Virus record (IMG/VR): IMGVR_UViG_3300032291_003205
Location: 1 to 64,000 of that record
Origin: a virus
Reading direction: 5' to 3' (one strand)
Length of the DNA: 64,000 nucleotides
The notes beneath the pieces are model-generated. The model worked only from the letters and a program-made list of their open reading frames with translations. It had not been told where the DNA came from and made no database searches. Of this stretch, positions 1,480 through 55,778 are shown in pieces (within the stretch, counting starts at the first letter, position 1; each line of letters opens with the position of its first letter). Both the position numbers and the translations under genes were made by a program.

Positions 1480-4146
1480 ATGTATCAAGCTGTATTTTAC
1501 GATAAAAACGAGAAACAATATTATTTACGTGATGATAGGTGGGATGGTTTTAAAACTGTTCAACATTGGCCTACCTATTATGTAGCTGATCCAGATGGTG
1601 AGTTTGTAACCTTAGAGGGTACACCTGTATCTCCTGTAAAAAAGATGGATGATTGGAAAAATCCTAAATACTTTGAAAAGGATGTAGATAAGGATACTCG
1701 ATTATTAGTTGATTATTATTACGAATCAGATGATACTCCCAAGTTCCACAACATTGTATTTTTAGATATTGAGTGTGAAATAGCAGGAGCATTAACTCCA
1801 GAAAACATTCGTAATCCTAAAGGTAAAATCACTTCTATTGCTCTTTATGATAATAATTCTAAAAAATATTATTGTTTAGTTTTAGATGAAAAACAAATTA
1901 TGAGTCCTAAATCTCATGATTTTAAAGAAGTTATCCCTTATATTAGTGAAAAGGATTTATTAAATGGATTTTTAGAGTTATGGATTAAGTTAGATCCTAC
2001 AATTTCATCTGGATGGAATAGTGCATTTTTTGATATGCCTTATTTGTATTTCCGTATGAAAAACATTTTAGGTGAAGAAACAGCATCTTACCTGTCTCCA
2101 ATAAATAAAGTTATATATAACGAATATAACAGTGATGACCCGCTAACAATTGGTGGTATTAATCACTTGGATTATATGTTGTTATTTAAAAAGTTTATTA
2201 CTAAACAAGAACCATCTTATCGTTTAAATGATATTGGTACTAAGTATGTTAAGTTAGGTAAGATTGATTATGAGGGTTCGCTTGATAAATTGTTTGTAGA
2301 CGATATAGATAAGTTTATTGATTATAACCTACGAGACGTAGAAATTATTGTTGAGTTAGAGAAAGCACAAAAATATATTGAGCTGACAGTTAATATTTGT
2401 CACTTATGTCATACCCCATATGATACAATTTATTATTCAACTGTTCTGAATGATGGAGCTATTTTAACTTACCTAAAACGTAAAGGAATAGTTTCACCTA
2501 ATAAACCAACTACTTACAATCCAGGATTAAGAGATATTAGTGTTAAAAAAGCTAAATTTGAATATGAAAAGGGCAATATTACAAAAGATGAATACGATGA
2601 AATAATATTATTAGCAGAATATGCTGGAGGTTATTTAAAAGATCCGGTACCTGGTTTATATGAGTGGGTTATTGATTTGGATTTTACTTCCTTGTATCCC
2701 TCAATTATTCGTTCACTTAATATGGGAATTGAAACATTAGTTGGTAGGGTTGTACATAGTGGTAAATTTGACAACCAGTGGTCATTAAAGGAATTAAAAC
2801 AAATGGACCCTGAAAGAGTTGTTGATATTGAAAAAATTAAAAAAGATAGAACAATTTCTATCTCTAAAATTAAAGTAGGTGACCTAGTAGAACTTATTGA
2901 AGAAAACGATTTATATATTTCGGCACCTGGGGTAATGTTTCGTAAAGACAAGTTAAGTGTTGTTTGTGAAATTTTATCAGACTGGTTTGCTAAACGTCAA
3001 GAATATAAACGTTTAATGAAAAAAGCATATAAAGTTGATAAAGACCCTGTAATGGGGGCTTTTTATGATAAACGTCAACATGCTTATAAAATTAAATTGA
3101 ATGATGTTTATGGTGTATTTGCTATTAATGGTTGGAGATACACAGATGGTAATAAGTTTATTAGTAAAGCTATTACTTTAACAGGACAACGTTTGTTACA
3201 AGAAAGTATTTCTAATATGAATGTTTATCTAAACAAGGAATTAGGTAATGAAATACCAGTAGATTATATTATTACAAGTGATACAGATTCACTATTCATT
3301 CAGTGTAAAGATCTATTAAAAGCAAGACATCCTGATATTGACTTTACTAATCATGAGGATGTAGTTAAAAAAATATTAGTAATTGCTACTGAGTTACAAG
3401 CAATGGCAAATAAGTTTATTGGTGAGTTTGCTGGAGAGGCTTTTAATTTAGGAGATGATGCCTTACACTATTTTGAATTGAAGCAAGAGGTTGTACTTGA
3501 TAGAGGTTATTTTGCTGGTAAGAGAAGATACGCCCAACACATTGTTAATAAAGAAGGTGTACCAACAGACGAACTAGATGTTAAAGGATTAGATTTGATG
3601 AAATCAAATTTCCCACCATTATTTAAAAAGTTTGGTGAACATCTTATTAATGAAATTATGTTTGGTAAACCCAAAACCGATATTGATAAACAAATATTAG
3701 ACTTTAGAAACGAAATAAGGACAATTAGTTGGAGGAAAATCCTAAAACCTACAGGATTAAAGATAATGAAAGAATATCTAGCATCTCCTCCATCAGCAGG
3801 TGAAATATTTTCTAAACTTAAATTAAAATGTCCTATTAATACTAAAGCAGCAATTTATACAAATGATATTTTACGATTTAAGAAACTAGATAAAAAATAC
3901 CCAACATTCCAGATTGGAGATAAAATTTATTTAGTATACCTAAAAGATAATCCATACAGAATAGATGCTATTGCTTTAAATGGTTATAATGATGCTCCTG
4001 AATTATTAGAGTTTGCTGAAAAATATATAGACAGAGATGGCTTATTTGATTCAGTTATGAAGAATAAATTAGAGTCATTATATTCGGATTTAGGATGGGG
4101 TGCTGTAGTACTTAATCCAAACATTAATAAATTTTTTAAATTTTAA
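1480..4146 (+). CDS. 43: Family B DNA polymerase (T4 gp43-like)
   Basis: An 888-residue replicative polymerase with proofreading exonuclease. Exo I is FLDIECE (Asp96, Glu98), Exo II is GWNSAFFDMPY, Exo III is YNLRDVEII. The polymerase domain shows motif A DFTSLYPSII (from Asp401), motif B KIKLNDVYG and motif C SDTDS (600-604). KRRYAQH downstream fits the thumb boundary. Length matches T4 gp43 (about 900). All key acidic residues are present, so it should be active. It is followed by the sliding clamp, and the clamp loader lies 4 kb downstream. The start is the first ATG after the merged terminator/promoter. Confidence 0.97.
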   Translation: MYQAVFYDKNEKQYYLRDDRWDGFKTVQHWPTYYVADPDGEFVTLEGTPVSPVKKMDDWKNPKYFEKDVDKDTRLLVDYYYESDDTPKFHNIVFLDIECEIAGALTPENIRNPKGKITSIALYDNNSKKYYCLVLDEKQIMSPKSHDFKEVIPYISEKDLLNGFLELWIKLDPTISSGWNSAFFDMPYLYFRMKNILGEETASYLSPINKVIYNEYNSDDPLTIGGINHLDYMLLFKKFITKQEPSYRLNDIGTKYVKLGKIDYEGSLDKLFVDDIDKFIDYNLRDVEIIVELEKAQKYIELTVNICHLCHTPYDTIYYSTVLNDGAILTYLKRKGIVSPNKPTTYNPGLRDISVKKAKFEYEKGNITKDEYDEIILLAEYAGGYLKDPVPGLYEWVIDLDFTSLYPSIIRSLNMGIETLVGRVVHSGKFDNQWSLKELKQMDPERVVDIEKIKKDRTISISKIKVGDLVELIEENDLYISAPGVMFRKDKLSVVCEILSDWFAKRQEYKRLMKKAYKVDKDPVMGAFYDKRQHAYKIKLNDVYGVFAINGWRYTDGNKFISKAITLTGQRLLQESISNMNVYLNKELGNEIPVDYIITSDTDSLFIQCKDLLKARHPDIDFTNHEDVVKKILVIATELQAMANKFIGEFAGEAFNLGDDALHYFELKQEVVLDRGYFAGKRRYAQHIVNKEGVPTDELDVKGLDLMKSNFPPLFKKFGEHLINEIMFGKPKTDIDKQILDFRNEIRTISWRKILKPTGLKIMKEYLASPPSAGEIFSKLKLKCPINTKAAIYTNDILRFKKLDKKYPTFQIGDKIYLVYLKDNPYRIDAIALNGYNDAPELLEFAEKYIDRDGLFDSVMKNKLESLYSDLGWGAVVLNPNINKFFKF

Positions 4147-7608: not shown

Positions 7609-7871
7609 GCAAAACAGAAGTTATAGAAAAAAATATTGAGATTGCAAATCGAATCCCACCAGGTGATAGATGGCAAGTGATTGGTGTTGAAGGAATTCAA
7701 AACGGATTAACTGATGCTTTAGAAGCTTATTATAATGTATCTACTGTTAAACCAAATGCATTTAGGTTGGGTTTAACTGAAGGTAAACTTTATGCTATTG
7801 TAAGTAATGAGGTTGAAGTCAAAATTCCAGAACCTAAAAAATATTCAATTTACGGAGACTATGAGTTCTAA
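7605..7871 (+). CDS. Unknown small protein, 88 aa
   Basis: An 88-residue protein of unknown function, with IPPGDRWQVIGVEGIQNGL near the middle. It overlaps both neighbours, and its end overlaps the start of the clamp-loader gene by 11 bases, so it belongs to the replication operon. Confidence 0.6.
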   Translation: MSKTEVIEKNIEIANRIPPGDRWQVIGVEGIQNGLTDALEAYYNVSTVKPNAFRLGLTEGKLYAIVSNEVEVKIPEPKKYSIYGDYEF

Positions 7872-8799
7872 GAGAGAACACACTTTATGGGTTGAGCTTT
7901 ATAGACCTGATAGTCTAGAAGGTTATGTTGGTAATGAAAATATCAAACAAACAATTAACCACTACCTTCTTCAAAACGATATCCAGAACTTTTTATTCTA
8001 TGGACCTCCAGGATGTGGTAAAACTACACTAGCAAAACTTATTGTTAACAATCTTGATTGTGAATATATGTACATCAATGCAAGTGATGAAAATGGAATT
8101 GACACAATTAGGGAAAAAGTTAAAAGTTTTGCCTCTGTTGCCTCATTTAAACCATTTAAAGTAATCATTCTTGATGAAGCAGATTATATTACAATTCAGG
8201 GCCAAGCAGCGCTTCGTAATATCATTGAAACATTTTCAAGGTCAACTCGTTTTATCTTAACTTGTAACTATATTGAACGTGTAATCGATCCTTTACAATC
8301 TCGTTGTCAGGTATTAAAAATTGTACCTCCTTCCAAAAATGAGATTGCTTATCATATTATGAATGTCCTTAAACAAGAGGAAGTTGACTGTAGTGCTGAT
8401 GATTTAAAATCAGTTATCAACCAACATTATCCTGATATTCGTAAAATGCTTAACACACTACAAATGAGTGTTAACGGCAATGAAATAGTTGTAGATAAGA
8501 GTATATTAGTGTCTAATAGCTACAAAAACAAGGTGCTCGCGGAACTATGTAAACCAACATCTAAATCGTTTAATAACATTAGACAAATAATTGCTGATTC
8601 GAATGTAAGTGATTTTGAAGACATGTTTAGGTACTTGTATGACAATGTAGAAAAATATGCTCCATTAAGTGTAGGTGAGGTAGTAATTTATATTGAAGAA
8701 TACCAATATCATTCCAATTTTAGAATCGATAAAGAAATAAATACAATGGCTTTGATATCCAGAATCTTGTCATTAATTTCAAGTAAAAGAGTTATATGA
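7861..8799 (+). CDS. 44: Clamp loader large subunit (T4 gp44-like AAA+ ATPase)
   Basis: A 312-residue AAA+ ATPase that opens and loads the sliding clamp. Walker A is GPPGCGKTT (48-56), Walker B VIILDEAD (101-108), sensor 1 TCN (134-136), and the trans-acting SRC motif is at 147-149. The N-terminal WVELYRPDSLEGYVG is typical of RFC/gp44 subunits. I start at 7861 (MSSKREHTLW) rather than upstream in-frame codons, because family homology begins there and ATG overlaps the upstream gene end. T4 gp44 is 319 aa. The partner gp62 lies 1 kb downstream behind an endonuclease gene. Confidence 0.95.
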   Translation: MSSKREHTLWVELYRPDSLEGYVGNENIKQTINHYLLQNDIQNFLFYGPPGCGKTTLAKLIVNNLDCEYMYINASDENGIDTIREKVKSFASVASFKPFKVIILDEADYITIQGQAALRNIIETFSRSTRFILTCNYIERVIDPLQSRCQVLKIVPPSKNEIAYHIMNVLKQEEVDCSADDLKSVINQHYPDIRKMLNTLQMSVNGNEIVVDKSILVSNSYKNKVLAELCKPTSKSFNNIRQIIADSNVSDFEDMFRYLYDNVEKYAPLSVGEVVIYIEEYQYHSNFRIDKEINTMALISRILSLISSKRVI

Positions 8800-8996
8800 G
8801 AAAATTTGTCCTATTTTTCATAATGTGGGTAGCTAGTAATTTATCTATTCCGTTTTGGGCAGTAGGACATATTCATCTAACCATGAATGTATATGATGAT
8901 ATTAAAGAAATAATAGCATCTTTCGGTATGAACATATTAGTTGCTACCGGATTTTATTTAGATTGGAAAAAACATAAAAAAGAAAACAATGAATAA
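8796..8996 (+). CDS. Small two-helix membrane protein
   Basis: A 66-residue protein with two hydrophobic segments (about 3-23 and 45-57) and a basic tail DWKKHKKENNE, so probably an inner-membrane protein. Overlaps of 4 and 8 bases with its neighbours place it in the clamp-loader operon. Function unknown. Confidence 0.65.
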   Translation: MRKFVLFFIMWVASNLSIPFWAVGHIHLTMNVYDDIKEIIASFGMNILVATGFYLDWKKHKKENNE

Positions 8997-9249
8997 TAAA
9001 CAACAAATGAATGTCAATATTGACATCAAAAACACTAAAGCCATTACATCACCAGAAGGCAATCACGTTTTTGCTGAGGGTGTAATTTTACGTAAAGTAT
9101 CTCGTTTTGTAACAGGTACATCCGAAGACGGAGTTATCCCAGTACCTTGTTTTTATGATATAGCTACAGGAAAAGTATTAGTAGAATTGCTTCCTAAAGA
9201 ATTAAGAGCAGAATTTGAAGAGGGTTCAACTGAACATTCAATGGACTAA
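8989..9249 (+). CDS. Unknown conserved-looking protein, 86 aa
   Basis: An 86-residue protein with a predicted beta-rich middle (VFAEGVILRKVSRF...GVIPVPCFYDIATGKVLVELLP) and acidic C-terminus. No family recognised. It lies between gp44 and gp62, and is followed 3 bases later by the orphan start of gene 62. Confidence 0.65.
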   Translation: MNNKQQMNVNIDIKNTKAITSPEGNHVFAEGVILRKVSRFVTGTSEDGVIPVPCFYDIATGKVLVELLPKELRAEFEEGSTEHSMD

Positions 9250-9252
9250 TAA

Positions 9253-9306
9253 ATGACAATATTTGATGACTTTTTGATTTTATACCATATGTATAATCAA
9301 AAATAG
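9253..9306 (+). pseudogene. 62: Orphan 5' end of gene 62 cut off by the GIY-YIG insertion
   Basis: ATGACAATATTTGAT encodes MTIFD, which matches the FTIFDWLKEI start of the intact gp62 frame at 9921. After GAT the frame continues for only 12 codons and stops at 9304-9306. I read this as the original start of gene 62, separated from the rest by the inserted endonuclease gene. Confidence 0.65.
9256..9267 (+). repeat. Direct repeat copy 1 (ACAATATTTGAT)
   Basis: This 12-bp sequence recurs exactly at 9922-9933, 666 bp downstream. The copies bracket the GIY-YIG gene and encode the same TIFD residues of gp62. Confidence 0.85.
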
Positions 9307-9310
9307 TCAT
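9266..9310 (+). promoter_or_regulatory. Hairpin over the start codon of the GIY-YIG gene
   Basis: An imperfect inverted repeat (9266-9284 with 9292-9310) ends in the A and T of the ATG at 9309. Folding in a long transcript would hide the start codon. It begins at the 3' edge of the direct repeat, so it arrived with the element. Confidence 0.65.
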
Positions 9311-9917
9311 GATTGGAATTTATAAGATCACCTCACCCACAGGTAAAATATACATTGGGAAATCAATTCATGTTAATGAAAGAATCAATAGCTACAAATA
9401 TGCTAGTAGAAGACAATCTCAACATAAATTGAATAATTCTATTAAAAAATATGGTTTAGAAAATCACCTATTTGAAATAATAGAAGAGTGTATTGAAGAA
9501 TTACTTGATGAAAGAGAAATATATTGGATAAACTTTTATAATAGTGTAACAGAAGGACTTAATTTAAAATATGGAGGAGAAGGGGGTAAACATAGTCAAG
9601 AAGTAAAAGATAAAAAATCTAAATCTATGACTGGAAAAAAAGCCTCTTTAGAAACCAAACAAAAAATGAGTCAATCTAAAAAAGGACACTCAATGTATAA
9701 TGATGAATGGAAGGAAAAAATGAAACAAAAAACATGGGTAAGTGGAACAAGCTCCAAACCTATCCTTCAGTTTGATTTAGATGGGAATTTTATAAAAGAG
9801 TATGTATCTTGCGCTGAAGCAAAAAAGGCACTAAATACAACATCAGTTTCAATAAATAATGTTTTAACAGGTATAAGCAAAACAGCTCATGGTTACAAAT
9901 GGAAATATAAAGAATAG
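9309..9917 (+). CDS. GIY-YIG homing endonuclease
   Basis: A 202-residue homing endonuclease. The catalytic domain is at residues 1-95 (GIYKI...KIYIGKS, then an Arg and a Glu-rich helix LLDEREIYWI), followed by NUMOD3-type DNA-binding repeats (about 98-130, SMTGKKASLETKQKMSQSKKG) and a NUMOD1-like helix-turn-helix at the end (PILQFDLDGNFIKEY...). It would nick or cut alleles lacking the insertion. It separates the orphan gene 62 start from the rest of gene 62, and a hairpin covers its start codon. Confidence 0.93.
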   Translation: MIGIYKITSPTGKIYIGKSIHVNERINSYKYASRRQSQHKLNNSIKKYGLENHLFEIIEECIEELLDEREIYWINFYNSVTEGLNLKYGGEGGKHSQEVKDKKSKSMTGKKASLETKQKMSQSKKGHSMYNDEWKEKMKQKTWVSGTSSKPILQFDLDGNFIKEYVSCAEAKKALNTTSVSINNVLTGISKTAHGYKWKYKE

Positions 9918-10344
9918 TTTTACAATATTTGATTGGCTTAAAGAGATAACAACAACGAAATCAGCTTGGTCTTCTTTTACAGAAGACCAGCAAAATTCGT
10001 TTAATTCTTACATGGTTCACCGATTTGTTAGTATGTATGAGGAGTATACCGAGGTTGCGAATTATGGCCAAAGGATACCATATCCTGAAAAAGAAAAAAC
10101 CTATAAATACTACTGCCATATGTTACCTAAAAAGAATGTCTTCCTTAAGTACGTGAAAAGTTCACGTAAAAAATCAAACGAACAATTGTTACATCACATT
10201 GCTAATCATTTTACAGTATCATTAGGTGAGGCAGAAGAATACATTGAGTTATTAAAAAAAGCCGGAGTAGAACAAATCCTTGAAAAATCAGGGGTTGACG
10301 AAAAGGAAATAAAAAAGTTACTTGCTTCTATAAAAGGAAATTAA
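9889..10344 (+). CDS. 62: Clamp loader small subunit (T4 gp62-like), 5' end rebuilt after insertion
   Basis: A 151-residue protein matching the gp62 position and style (FTIFDWLKEITTTKSAWSSF, then FVSMYEEYTEVANYGQ). It pairs with gp44 to load the clamp. The ATG at 9889 lies inside the end of the GIY-YIG gene and adds about ten residues (MVTNGNIKNS) before the native FTIFDW. The original start is probably at 9253. It may therefore be translated by coupling to the endonuclease. An alternative is internal initiation. Confidence 0.8.
   Translation: MVTNGNIKNSFTIFDWLKEITTTKSAWSSFTEDQQNSFNSYMVHRFVSMYEEYTEVANYGQRIPYPEKEKTYKYYCHMLPKKNVFLKYVKSSRKKSNEQLLHHIANHFTVSLGEAEEYIELLKKAGVEQILEKSGVDEKEIKKLLASIKGN
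9922..9933 (+). repeat. Direct repeat copy 2 (ACAATATTTGAT)
   Basis: Second copy of the 12-bp repeat, here in the functional gene 62 frame. The 666-bp offset is a multiple of three, so both copies are in the same frame. Confidence 0.85.
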
Positions 10345-10348
10345 AAAG

Positions 10349-10381
10349 TTCATTTTCTATATATTTATAATAGAATATGAA
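10349..10381 (+). promoter_or_regulatory. Hairpin over the HNH start codon with late-type motif in the loop
   Basis: A 12-bp stem with one mismatch pairs 10349-10360 with 10370-10381, enclosing the ATG at 10377. The loop is ATATTTATA, the core of the candidate late promoter motif. A transcript starting at that motif would lack the 5' arm and leave the start free. Confidence 0.7.
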
Positions 10382-11084
10382 AGTATGTACTAAATGTAAA
10401 GAAGAAAAAAACCTATTTGATTTCCCTAAGAATAAAAGAAAAAATGATGGATACCACTACCAGTGTAAGGTTTGTGTAAATAATACCTCCAAAACATACC
10501 ATCAAAATAATAAAGAAAAAAGAAATAAATATATAAAACAGTATCAAAATTTATCTAAAGATCAAATTAAAGAATACCAACAGTTCTGGTATTTGGGTAA
10601 TAAAGAAAAATTAAAAAATATATACGATTCTAAAAAAGAAACTAAATTATTATATCAAAAAGAATATTATCAAAATAATAAAGAAAAAAGAAATGAATAT
10701 TTAAAACATTATCATAAAAATAAATACAATAATGATATTGATTTTAAATTAAGTATTTCTTTTAGAACTAGAATTATTGCTGCTTTAAAGGGAAATTTTA
10801 AGGAAGATAAAACTTTTAGTCTTTTAGGTTGTAATATTAAAGAATTTAAATTATATTTAGAAACACAATTTTTAAAAGAGATGAATTGGGATAACCATGG
10901 ATATATTTGGGAAATAGATCATATAAAACCTTGTGCTATGTTTAATTTATCTGACCCTAAACAACAAAAGGAATGCTTTCATTATACAAACCACCAACCT
11001 CTTTTTAAAACAACAGAAATAGCAAAATCTTTTGGTTATAAAAATTATATAGGAAACAGAAATAAATTTAAAAACAAGTTATGA
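10377..11084 (+). CDS. HNH homing endonuclease with N-terminal zinc finger
   Basis: A 235-residue protein. Cys4, Cys7, Cys30 and Cys33 form a zinc finger at the N-terminus; a Lys/Tyr-rich region with YHQNNKEKRNKY-type repeats follows (about 40-125). The HNH core is EIDHIKP (about 178-184) and YTNHQPLF near 203-210. It would be a free-standing homing nuclease. It lies between gp62 and the MazG-like gene, and its start is in a hairpin. Confidence 0.9.
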   Translation: MKVCTKCKEEKNLFDFPKNKRKNDGYHYQCKVCVNNTSKTYHQNNKEKRNKYIKQYQNLSKDQIKEYQQFWYLGNKEKLKNIYDSKKETKLLYQKEYYQNNKEKRNEYLKHYHKNKYNNDIDFKLSISFRTRIIAALKGNFKEDKTFSLLGCNIKEFKLYLETQFLKEMNWDNHGYIWEIDHIKPCAMFNLSDPKQQKECFHYTNHQPLFKTTEIAKSFGYKNYIGNRNKFKNKL

Positions 11085-26861: not shown

Positions 26862-27420
26862 TACGTACATCTATCTAGTTGAAAACTGTTTCAACAATCT
26901 TAATAAAATTTATATTGGTAAAACTATAGATTTATCAAACAGAAAAAGTAAACATAAAAAAGTATATGGTAAAGAAATTAAGTTTACTATAATAGATGAA
27001 GTTAATTCCTTAGATAGAAAAGATTGGAGACCTATTGAAACAATGTGGATACAAAGTTTTATAGGTTGGGGTTTTGATGTTTTAAATACTCAAAAAGATG
27101 GAGGTAGCGGTCCATCCTTTAAAACCGAAGAACAGAAAAAACATTTAAGTAAAAAATTAAAAGAAAGAAAATATTTAGATAATTGGACATTAAAAAATAA
27201 AGAAAACCAACGTAAAGGTCCAAAACATTCTAAAGAACAAATTAAAAAATGGAGTAAACCAGTCCTTCAGTTTGATAAATATGGAAATTTTATTAAAGAA
27301 TTCCCATCAATATTATCAGCTGCTTCTTCTTTAAATAAAAGTAGACCCTTTATTTGGAATTGTTTAAAAGGAATAGTTAAAACTGCTGGTGGTTACATTT
27401 GGAAATACAAAAATAATTAA
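26851..27420 (+). CDS. GIY-YIG homing endonuclease
   Basis: A 189-residue protein. The catalytic domain has YIYLVEN and KIYIGKTIDLSNRKSKH, with Glu in PIETMWIQ; a NUMOD1-type DNA-binding end (PVLQFDKYGNFIKEF...) closes it. It is not visibly inserted inside another gene; the upstream gene ends normally. Its stop codon region holds a TTGG-N19-TATATT promoter for the next genes. Only one NUMOD3-like stretch (about 85-130) is seen. Confidence 0.85.
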   Translation: MINITYIYLVENCFNNLNKIYIGKTIDLSNRKSKHKKVYGKEIKFTIIDEVNSLDRKDWRPIETMWIQSFIGWGFDVLNTQKDGGSGPSFKTEEQKKHLSKKLKERKYLDNWTLKNKENQRKGPKHSKEQIKKWSKPVLQFDKYGNFIKEFPSILSAASSLNKSRPFIWNCLKGIVKTAGGYIWKYKNN

Positions 27421-55069: not shown

Positions 55070-55778
55070 TTCGAGCAATATAGGAATTTATAAAATATTA
55101 AATCCTAAAGGAAGAGTATATATTGGACAATCTACTAATTTAAAAAATAGAGAAAAACAATATAAAAACATAAAAGAATCTAAAGAACAAATAAAATTAA
55201 ATAGATCTTTTAAAAAATATGGGATTGATAATCACCTATTTGATATTGTAGAGTATTGTACTTTAGAACAGTTAGATGATAGAGAAATATATTGGGGTGA
55301 ATTTTATAATGTATTAAAAACAGGTTTAAATTGTAGATTAGGTAGAGGTAGAGGATTAGTAAGTGATGATTTGAGAGAAAGAATGAAAATATCTAATAAA
55401 AGGAAAAAAATTAAACCTGTTTTACAATATGATTTATATGGTAATTTTATTAAAAAATGGGAAGCAATTTCAGATGCTGAAAAAAGCTTAGGAGTTAATA
55501 ATAATACTAACATAAGTGCTTGTTGTTTAGGAAAACAAAAAACAGCATGGGGTTTTATTTGGAGATTTGAAAACGGGGATATAGAGAAAAAAATAGAGGG
55601 AGTAAAACACACACAAGTAGTTGTACAATATGATTTAGAAGGTAATTTTATTAAAGAATGGGATAATATAAAACAAATTAAAGAAACATTAGGTTTTTCT
55701 TATTCAACATTATATGAATGTGTAAATGGAAGATGGAAACAATGTAGTGGTTTTATTTGGAAGTATAAAGAAATTTAA
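55062..55778 (+). CDS. GIY-YIG homing endonuclease with two NUMOD1 repeats
   Basis: A 238-residue protein. The catalytic domain is IGIYKILNPKGRVYIGQS with LDDREIYW; two NUMOD1-like DNA-binding units follow (PVLQYDLYGNFIKKW about 112-165 and VVQYDLEGNFIKEW about 180-235). It lies in the break of the RNA ligase gene, so it probably came with the event that split it or targets that site. Confidence 0.9.
   Translation: MDISSNIGIYKILNPKGRVYIGQSTNLKNREKQYKNIKESKEQIKLNRSFKKYGIDNHLFDIVEYCTLEQLDDREIYWGEFYNVLKTGLNCRLGRGRGLVSDDLRERMKISNKRKKIKPVLQYDLYGNFIKKWEAISDAEKSLGVNNNTNISACCLGKQKTAWGFIWRFENGDIEKKIEGVKHTQVVVQYDLEGNFIKEWDNIKQIKETLGFSYSTLYECVNGRWKQCSGFIWKYKEI

Follow-up and report, generated by a model that had tools for sequence, protein, structure and literature searches.

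A gene for a GIY-YIG homing endonuclease sits between codons 5 and 6 of gene 62 in a phage known from a 102-kb virus record, of which a 64,000-nucleotide, AT-rich stretch with 32% G+C (hereafter the window) was analysed. We consider it very probable that this gene belongs to a homing cassette that moves horizontally and repairs the gene 62 it enters, by means of codons 2-5 that it carries and a new start. What comparison of the loci at the sequence level demonstrates is the insertion at codon 5/6, its horizontal spread and the presence, at the end of the insert, of a patch joined in frame to gene 62.

The phage carrying the insertion is T4-like. Its operon runs in the order gp44 (7807-8799), a 66-aa small protein, o86 (8989-9249), gene 62, o82 and a nuclease-like gene; o86, on the + strand like all features of the insertion given below, ends 3 bases short of the native ATG of gene 62. 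In its present form, gene 62 is a 151-aa ORF at 9889-10344 (+ strand), in the same frame as the ATG at 9253, and its product is the small subunit of the clamp loader. It matches PHROG_225 (clamp-loader subunit) at 7e-17, a profile search backs its identity as T4 gp62, and the top five structural matches of a model built from 29 sequences (mean pLDDT 85) are T4 gp62 chains, with weak E-values. Against named phages, megablast of the region gave no match and tblastn of gp62 gave distant matches only; in the named Flavobacterium phage with the closest GroEL, gene order downstream differs.

The native start of gene 62, that is, ATG plus codons 2-5, is still in place at 9253-9267 and is identical in uninserted relatives (e.g. 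loci L009 and L005). It is followed by 666 bp (9268-9933), inserted between codon 5 (GAT) and codon 6 (TGG), which are missing from the relatives whose empty site aligns without gaps. The insertion creates a 17-codon leader reading frame (MTIFDDFLILYHMYNQK, 9253-9306), which stops 2 bases before the ATG of the endonuclease gene (9309-9917). The latter is an intact ORF of 202 aa in which domain searches find GIY-YIG, NUMOD1 and I-HmuI-like modules (Pfam GIY-YIG 4.4e-7 and NUMOD1 7.4e-8, both above cut-offs). Overlapping its 3' end in another frame is the patch, a new gene 62 ATG with ten further codons (MVTNGNIKNSF, 9889-9921), and this is followed by a second, right copy of a 12-bp sequence, ACAATATTTGAT, which by sequence match resupplies codons 2-5 (TIFD) at 9922-9933. 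The left copy (9256-9267) lies in the native start. A first-pass annotation made from the letters of the window alone had reported the repeat, the GIY-YIG gene between its copies, a new ATG at 9889 within that gene and the restoration of the beginning of gene 62 by an extra copy of codons 2-5. All of this was borne out, with ACAATATTTGAT occurring exactly twice in the 64 kb, 666 bp apart, and with 9889 being the only conventional in-frame start (the arrangement is the same in L086); the last point can be refined since, judging by the sequences, the left copy is the native gene 62 start and the right one came with the insert. The number of copies expected by chance is 0.09, and 1 of 100 shuffles gave two or more. 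Because the flanks are AT-rich, a 12-base match is by itself moderate evidence, 12 or more matching bases being seen in 8 of 600 mismatched flank pairs. The decisive sign of an insertion is instead the identity of both copies as gene 62 codons 2-5, together with the existence of uninterrupted relatives.

These relatives come from a gp62 search that gave 80 loci (metagenomic contigs), which were compared at the gene 62 start. More than 70 of the 80 are uninserted and start directly with codons for (M/V)-(T/S)-(I/L)-F-D-(W/F), which is MTIFDW in the closest ones. The window-type endonuclease is found at the same place in L001 and L002, a different endonuclease lies upstream in L020 and L021, L024 is truncated before the gp62 start, and L077/L078 have a naturally longer start (MTNKTFTIFDW). 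When the window flanks were compared with relatives by BLAST, the joined flanks aligned gap-free to L009 (97.2% over 570 bp), L005, L010, L013 and L014, and therefore the 666 bp lie between the GAT and TGG of gene 62. The earlier proposal of an insertion after the fifth codon thus stands, and the same five loci provide the continuous MTIFDW that it predicted for relatives. Among relatives, the endonuclease gene is present or absent at one fixed gene 62 site. The D and W that flank this site are invariant in 29 gp62 proteins, which makes the target codons well chosen.

Removing the 666 bases rebuilds native gene 62 exactly, and this type of endonuclease is common in introns, which would fit a self-splicing intron or other spliced element that takes 9268-9933 out of the mRNA, with gene 62 starting at 9253. 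We hold this to be very improbable. The sequence left outside the endonuclease gene amounts to 41 bases in front of it and 4 that separate its stop from the repeat, in agreement with the first-pass view that room for a group I intron is lacking, and no group I intron core was found outside the endonuclease ORF. An Rfam search of the window gave no match at E up to 1, while a search of six related loci gave no intron but tRNAs and sub-threshold antisense tRNA matches, in L088 only. Moreover, an element removed by splicing would have no use for the in-frame gene 62 ATG that this insert provides.

Searches with the endonuclease and gp62 bring the inserted lineages to at least five, all with the insertion between codons 5 and 6 of gene 62. 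These are A (the window and L001, with L002 showing the right part only), B (L086, L087), C (L088, L089), C' (L164, one contig) and D (L090, one contig). Each keeps on the left the ATG and codons 2-5, then a short frame stopping before the endonuclease (in A, B, C, C' and D, respectively: MTIFDDFLILYHMYNQK, MTVWDYF, MTMFDDIL, MTPFDDSL and MTLFDDIS), and in each, on the right side, an ATG located within or at the 3' end of the endonuclease gene opens a frame that continues into gene 62 (MVTNGNIKNSF-TIFDW in A, MVTNGNSNKSL-TVWDW in B, MEKQIKKTL-TPFDW in C and C', MKMK-NIFDW in D). Uninserted alleles matching the left copy are available for A, B (L177/L178, ATGACAGTTTGGGAT-TGG) and D (L209, ATGACACTATTTGAT-TGG), in which the left copy is proven native; the loci set holds no empty alleles for C and C'. 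Insert lengths are 666 bp in the window and 652, 650, 653 and 665 bp in the sister lineages. The first-pass annotation had pointed to the frame shared by the two copies of the window; the 666-bp spacing is real, but the sister lengths, which are not all multiples of three, make the shared frame incidental.

With these alleles at hand, it is highly unlikely that the endonuclease gene merely lies upstream of a gene 62 that naturally starts at a 9889-type position, the left copy being coincidental. Longer beginnings do exist, since L077 and L078, without endonuclease, start six codons earlier (MTNKTF-TIFDW) and L020 and L021, with another endonuclease upstream, have MTNKQTSF-TIFDW. However, the nearest relatives begin with MTIFDW, the left ATG and codons 2-5 are unbroken native sequence, A, B and D have a left remnant that agrees with their native start, and the empty alleles contradict such a reading directly.

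Two further types of gp62 start were seen. In L221, L242, L266, L270, L274 and L277, uninserted D-lineage alleles start downstream (with GTG in most) and follow a ~16-bp tandem near-repeat (e.g. ATGACACTATTTGATC-GTGACCTTATTTGAT-TGG in L221), which could be either a plain tandem duplication or the footprint of a lost cassette. In L199/L200, the gp62 start has the very sequence of L088 (MEKQIKKTLTPFDW), with a different endonuclease in front of it and no left remnant; endonuclease genes seem to have been exchanged here while the embedded gp62 start was kept.

Taken at sequence level, the cassette is a recurring mobile type, present in at least five gene 62 lineages. The endonucleases of the four other lineages are 55-70% identical to that of the window, against only 31-44% for gene 62. 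Between A and B or C, identity is 68-70% for the endonuclease, 35-38% for gp62 and 44-49% for gp44; between C and C', the endonuclease reaches 87% against 61%, and in D, the most distant lineage, the values are 55% for the endonuclease and 44% for gp62. Since the endonuclease is far more alike than gene 62 across lineages, the cassette moves horizontally. Window and L001 are ~98% identical through the cassette, whereas identity in the left flank (up to 9239) is as low as 83%, with 11 of 36 positions differing in 9204-9239 (mosaic flanks). The endonuclease is under purifying selection (dN/dS 0.08-0.24), and both the GIY-YIG nuclease domain and the modular DNA-binding C-terminus are also intact in the relatives' endonucleases. 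A scan with the DNA-binding half of the endonuclease revealed no further gene 62 insertions among the matches listed.

The origin of the repeat can be approached by comparing its copies. Lineages A and B each have two exact copies, identical to the native codons of the lineage itself, and the repeats of A and B differ from each other at 4 of 12 bases. The copies of C' differ at 3 bases (9/12 match) and both encode TPFD, those of C match at 7/12, and in L090, the one contig of lineage D, the right copy encodes NIFD where the native codons encode TLFD, which implies that the patch was brought by the insert. Exact native bases, different in A and B, are also what a transposon-like insertion with a 12-bp target-site duplication would leave, the restart at 9889 being luck. 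This is improbable, considering that the insert contains no transposase, that GIY-YIG enzymes leave 2-base ends according to a review of T4 endonucleases (PMC2988022), that the right copy in D is not native sequence, that no exact target duplication of constant length runs through the lineages, and that extra in-frame codons and an ATG come with the insert in every one of them. Returning to a patch carried by the cassette, it may derive from another lineage, as the sequence of D suggests, and for A and B the possibilities are that it was formed from recipient sequence when the cassette entered or that it was converted to that sequence. Our preferred inference is that the two copies are homologous ends where exchange with the recipient's single copy occurs. 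The letter-perfect copies in A and B, with their different sequences, are not fully explained by copying from a donor.

How could gene 62 be expressed after such an insertion? Its frame has a stop at 9874 and then the ATG at 9889, within the endonuclease gene, whose stop codon starts 26 bases downstream of the A of that ATG. A random position just behind an endonuclease stop has an ATG upstream that reads into it in frame in 28% of cases; at 0.28 per lineage, a restart ATG in all five lineages is therefore expected by chance at ~0.0016, and selection for it is supported, if not overwhelmingly so. Purine-rich ribosome sites are scarce (13 of 103 genes), which, together with a native gene 62 start right behind the o86 stop, makes a chain of termination and reinitiation the natural reading. 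Translation, including the start at 9889, would then be coupled. In T4, gp62 is translationally coupled to its partner clamp-loader gene, printed as gp46 in the review cited above (PMC2988022). As for the protein, the predicted disorder of residues 1-7 and a first helix from residue 13 in the model suggest that the added N-terminus should be tolerated.

A stem-loop predicted at 9265-9312 spans from the end of the left repeat copy to the start codon of the endonuclease. It is suggestive only (z -2.45, 4 of 200 shuffles as stable), with folds in the other lineages being weaker or different, and it recalls the hairpins that precede several T4 endonuclease genes (PMC2988022). Its position right after a GAT is also reminiscent of T4 gene 60 and would suit ribosome bypassing, with take-off at GAT 9265, landing on the matching GAT 9931, 666 bases skipped and the 12-bp repeat providing matched sites. 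Bypassing in T4 gene 60 needs a ~25-residue nascent peptide, a stop next to the codon of take-off and a gap of 50 bases (PMC5009743), whereas here only five codons precede, the gap contains a gene, no stop directly follows GAT in any lineage, and C (7/12) and D do not retain the repeat. This makes bypassing extremely improbable.

In the patching scenario that we favour, the endonuclease would (i) cut an uninserted gene 62 near its highly conserved codons, whereupon (ii) the cassette would be copied into the cut gene by recombination repair and (iii) break up the target site of the endonuclease. Translation would begin at the former gene 62 ATG, terminate at the end of the leader and reinitiate on the endonuclease, and a second reinitiation at 9889 would yield a gene 62 product whose N-terminus is extended by a short stretch, probably disordered. 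Ordinary deletion of the cassette would be costly, given that the endonuclease gene now contains the gene 62 start; recombination between the 12-bp copies would restore the original gene 62 exactly.

The gp44-gp62 operon is an insertion hot spot, several of the inserts being endonuclease genes of different kinds. Insertions are found at the boundary between gp44 and tm66 in L006, L008 and L017, and upstream of gp62 in L020, L021, L199 and L104, and there is extra DNA between o82 and the nuclease-like gene in L003, L006 and L014. The phage record of the window has two more GIY-YIG genes (26866-27060 and 55080-55295), as well as an HNH/endonuclease VII-like gene (10377-11084) at the 3' end of gene 62, which is not in the other gp62 loci examined. 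This HNH-like gene changes the gene 62 C-terminus from KEVK to ASIKGN, and its stop overlaps the ATG of the next gene (ATGA overlap); a 31-nt imperfect tandem repeat (10301-10362) also lies at the gene 62 3' end. On the + strand, ATATTTAT occurs at 4146, 10361, 12287, 30094 and other positions of the window. It is enriched about 7-fold upstream of genes (10 of 103 upstream regions), also directly precedes many endonuclease genes (those of L086, L088 and L164 among them), and is likely a promoter element; GTTCGTATATT is a second enriched motif.

In a survey of 78 endonuclease loci, the gene 62 family alone showed exact flanking repeats above the level of mismatched flanks, and a looser test of 141 endonuclease ORFs adds as a clear match only the folE (GTP cyclohydrolase) gene of L165. 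Flank similarities in L298, L162 and L104 were read and judged to be chance or intergenic similarity, and that in L313 is an AT-rich match. The folE gene of L165/L363 (the same contig; L165 2332-3360) contains a GIY-YIG gene flanked by an 80-bp direct repeat of 96% identity. The left repeat copy gives folE a complete but altered end (RGVRHKSSTMTTNKF...HAVSLNNPSE) and the right copy is the orphaned native tail (TSTMTTNKF...HAITKNGVSI), which is continuous in the uninserted relative L364 (flanks 98-99% identical). By these sequences, folE of this other phage is a case of an independent endonuclease using the same patch principle at the 3' end of a gene.

The gene-patching principle itself is already known in fungal mitochondria, where mobile ORFs with a C-terminal patch have been described in Allomyces atp6 and in Glomus atp6, atp9, cox2 and nad3 (PMC3630166). 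What these have in common with the gene 62 cassette is an endonuclease ORF that enters a conserved gene and brings a replacement for the severed end, while the native end stays as an orphan and the hybrid gene is used (PMC3630166). They differ in being mitochondrial, with C-terminal patches and mostly LAGLIDADG enzymes, in contrast to a phage cassette with a GIY-YIG enzyme that supplies a new start and a 5' end of five codons; their direct 3'-end counterpart is folE in L363. In gene 62, the hallmark of patching (carried replacement end, native end orphaned) is found with leaders and restarts in five lineages. Introns with a duplicate of the N-terminal part of the host gene, proposed to replace that part, are also on record (PMC7315562), but their duplications are long, whereas the window has no intron core and 12 duplicated bases. 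Among T4 elements (PMC2988022), the seg/mob genes show likenesses, namely (i) a free-standing GIY-YIG gene beside an essential replication gene, (ii) a hairpin before the endonuclease in several and (iii) embedded signals for the neighbouring gene that favour retention. Unlike the gene 62 cassette, T4 seg genes lie between genes, and MobE (in Aeh1 nrdA) and MobA (in the T4 topoisomerase gene) split their targets into two polypeptides (PMC2988022), whereas gene 62 stays whole through the patch. No carried patch is described in the passages of the review consulted (PMC2988022). The T4 gene 60/mobA pair is alike in that a phage gene interrupted in association with a homing endonuclease remains expressed, through a 50-base ribosome bypass (PMC5009743) rather than carried codons and a new start.

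We found no description of a gene-patching endonuclease from a phage in the open-access literature. There is, in our estimation, an even chance that some phage homing endonuclease genes form a distinct gene-patching class, which invades conserved codons of essential genes and needs neither intron nor intein, since every member brings along the part of the target that it severs, be it a 5' end with a new start or a 3' end with a new tail. If so, patching would join RNA splicing and protein splicing as a third means by which a phage coding sequence can accommodate an endonuclease gene, and the gene ends of one phage lineage could be rewritten by patches that originated in another.

The usual way for homing endonuclease genes to spare a host gene is an intergenic location or residence in an intron or intein. 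The present endonuclease gene, which has no intron, sits at the most conserved codons of an essential gene for replication in at least five phage lineages, and the new beginning that it supplies would keep gene 62 usable. Patch cassettes of this kind would explain sudden changes of protein ends in phage genomes, and the patch offers a simple argument, based on the cost of loss, for the persistence of a selfish gene.
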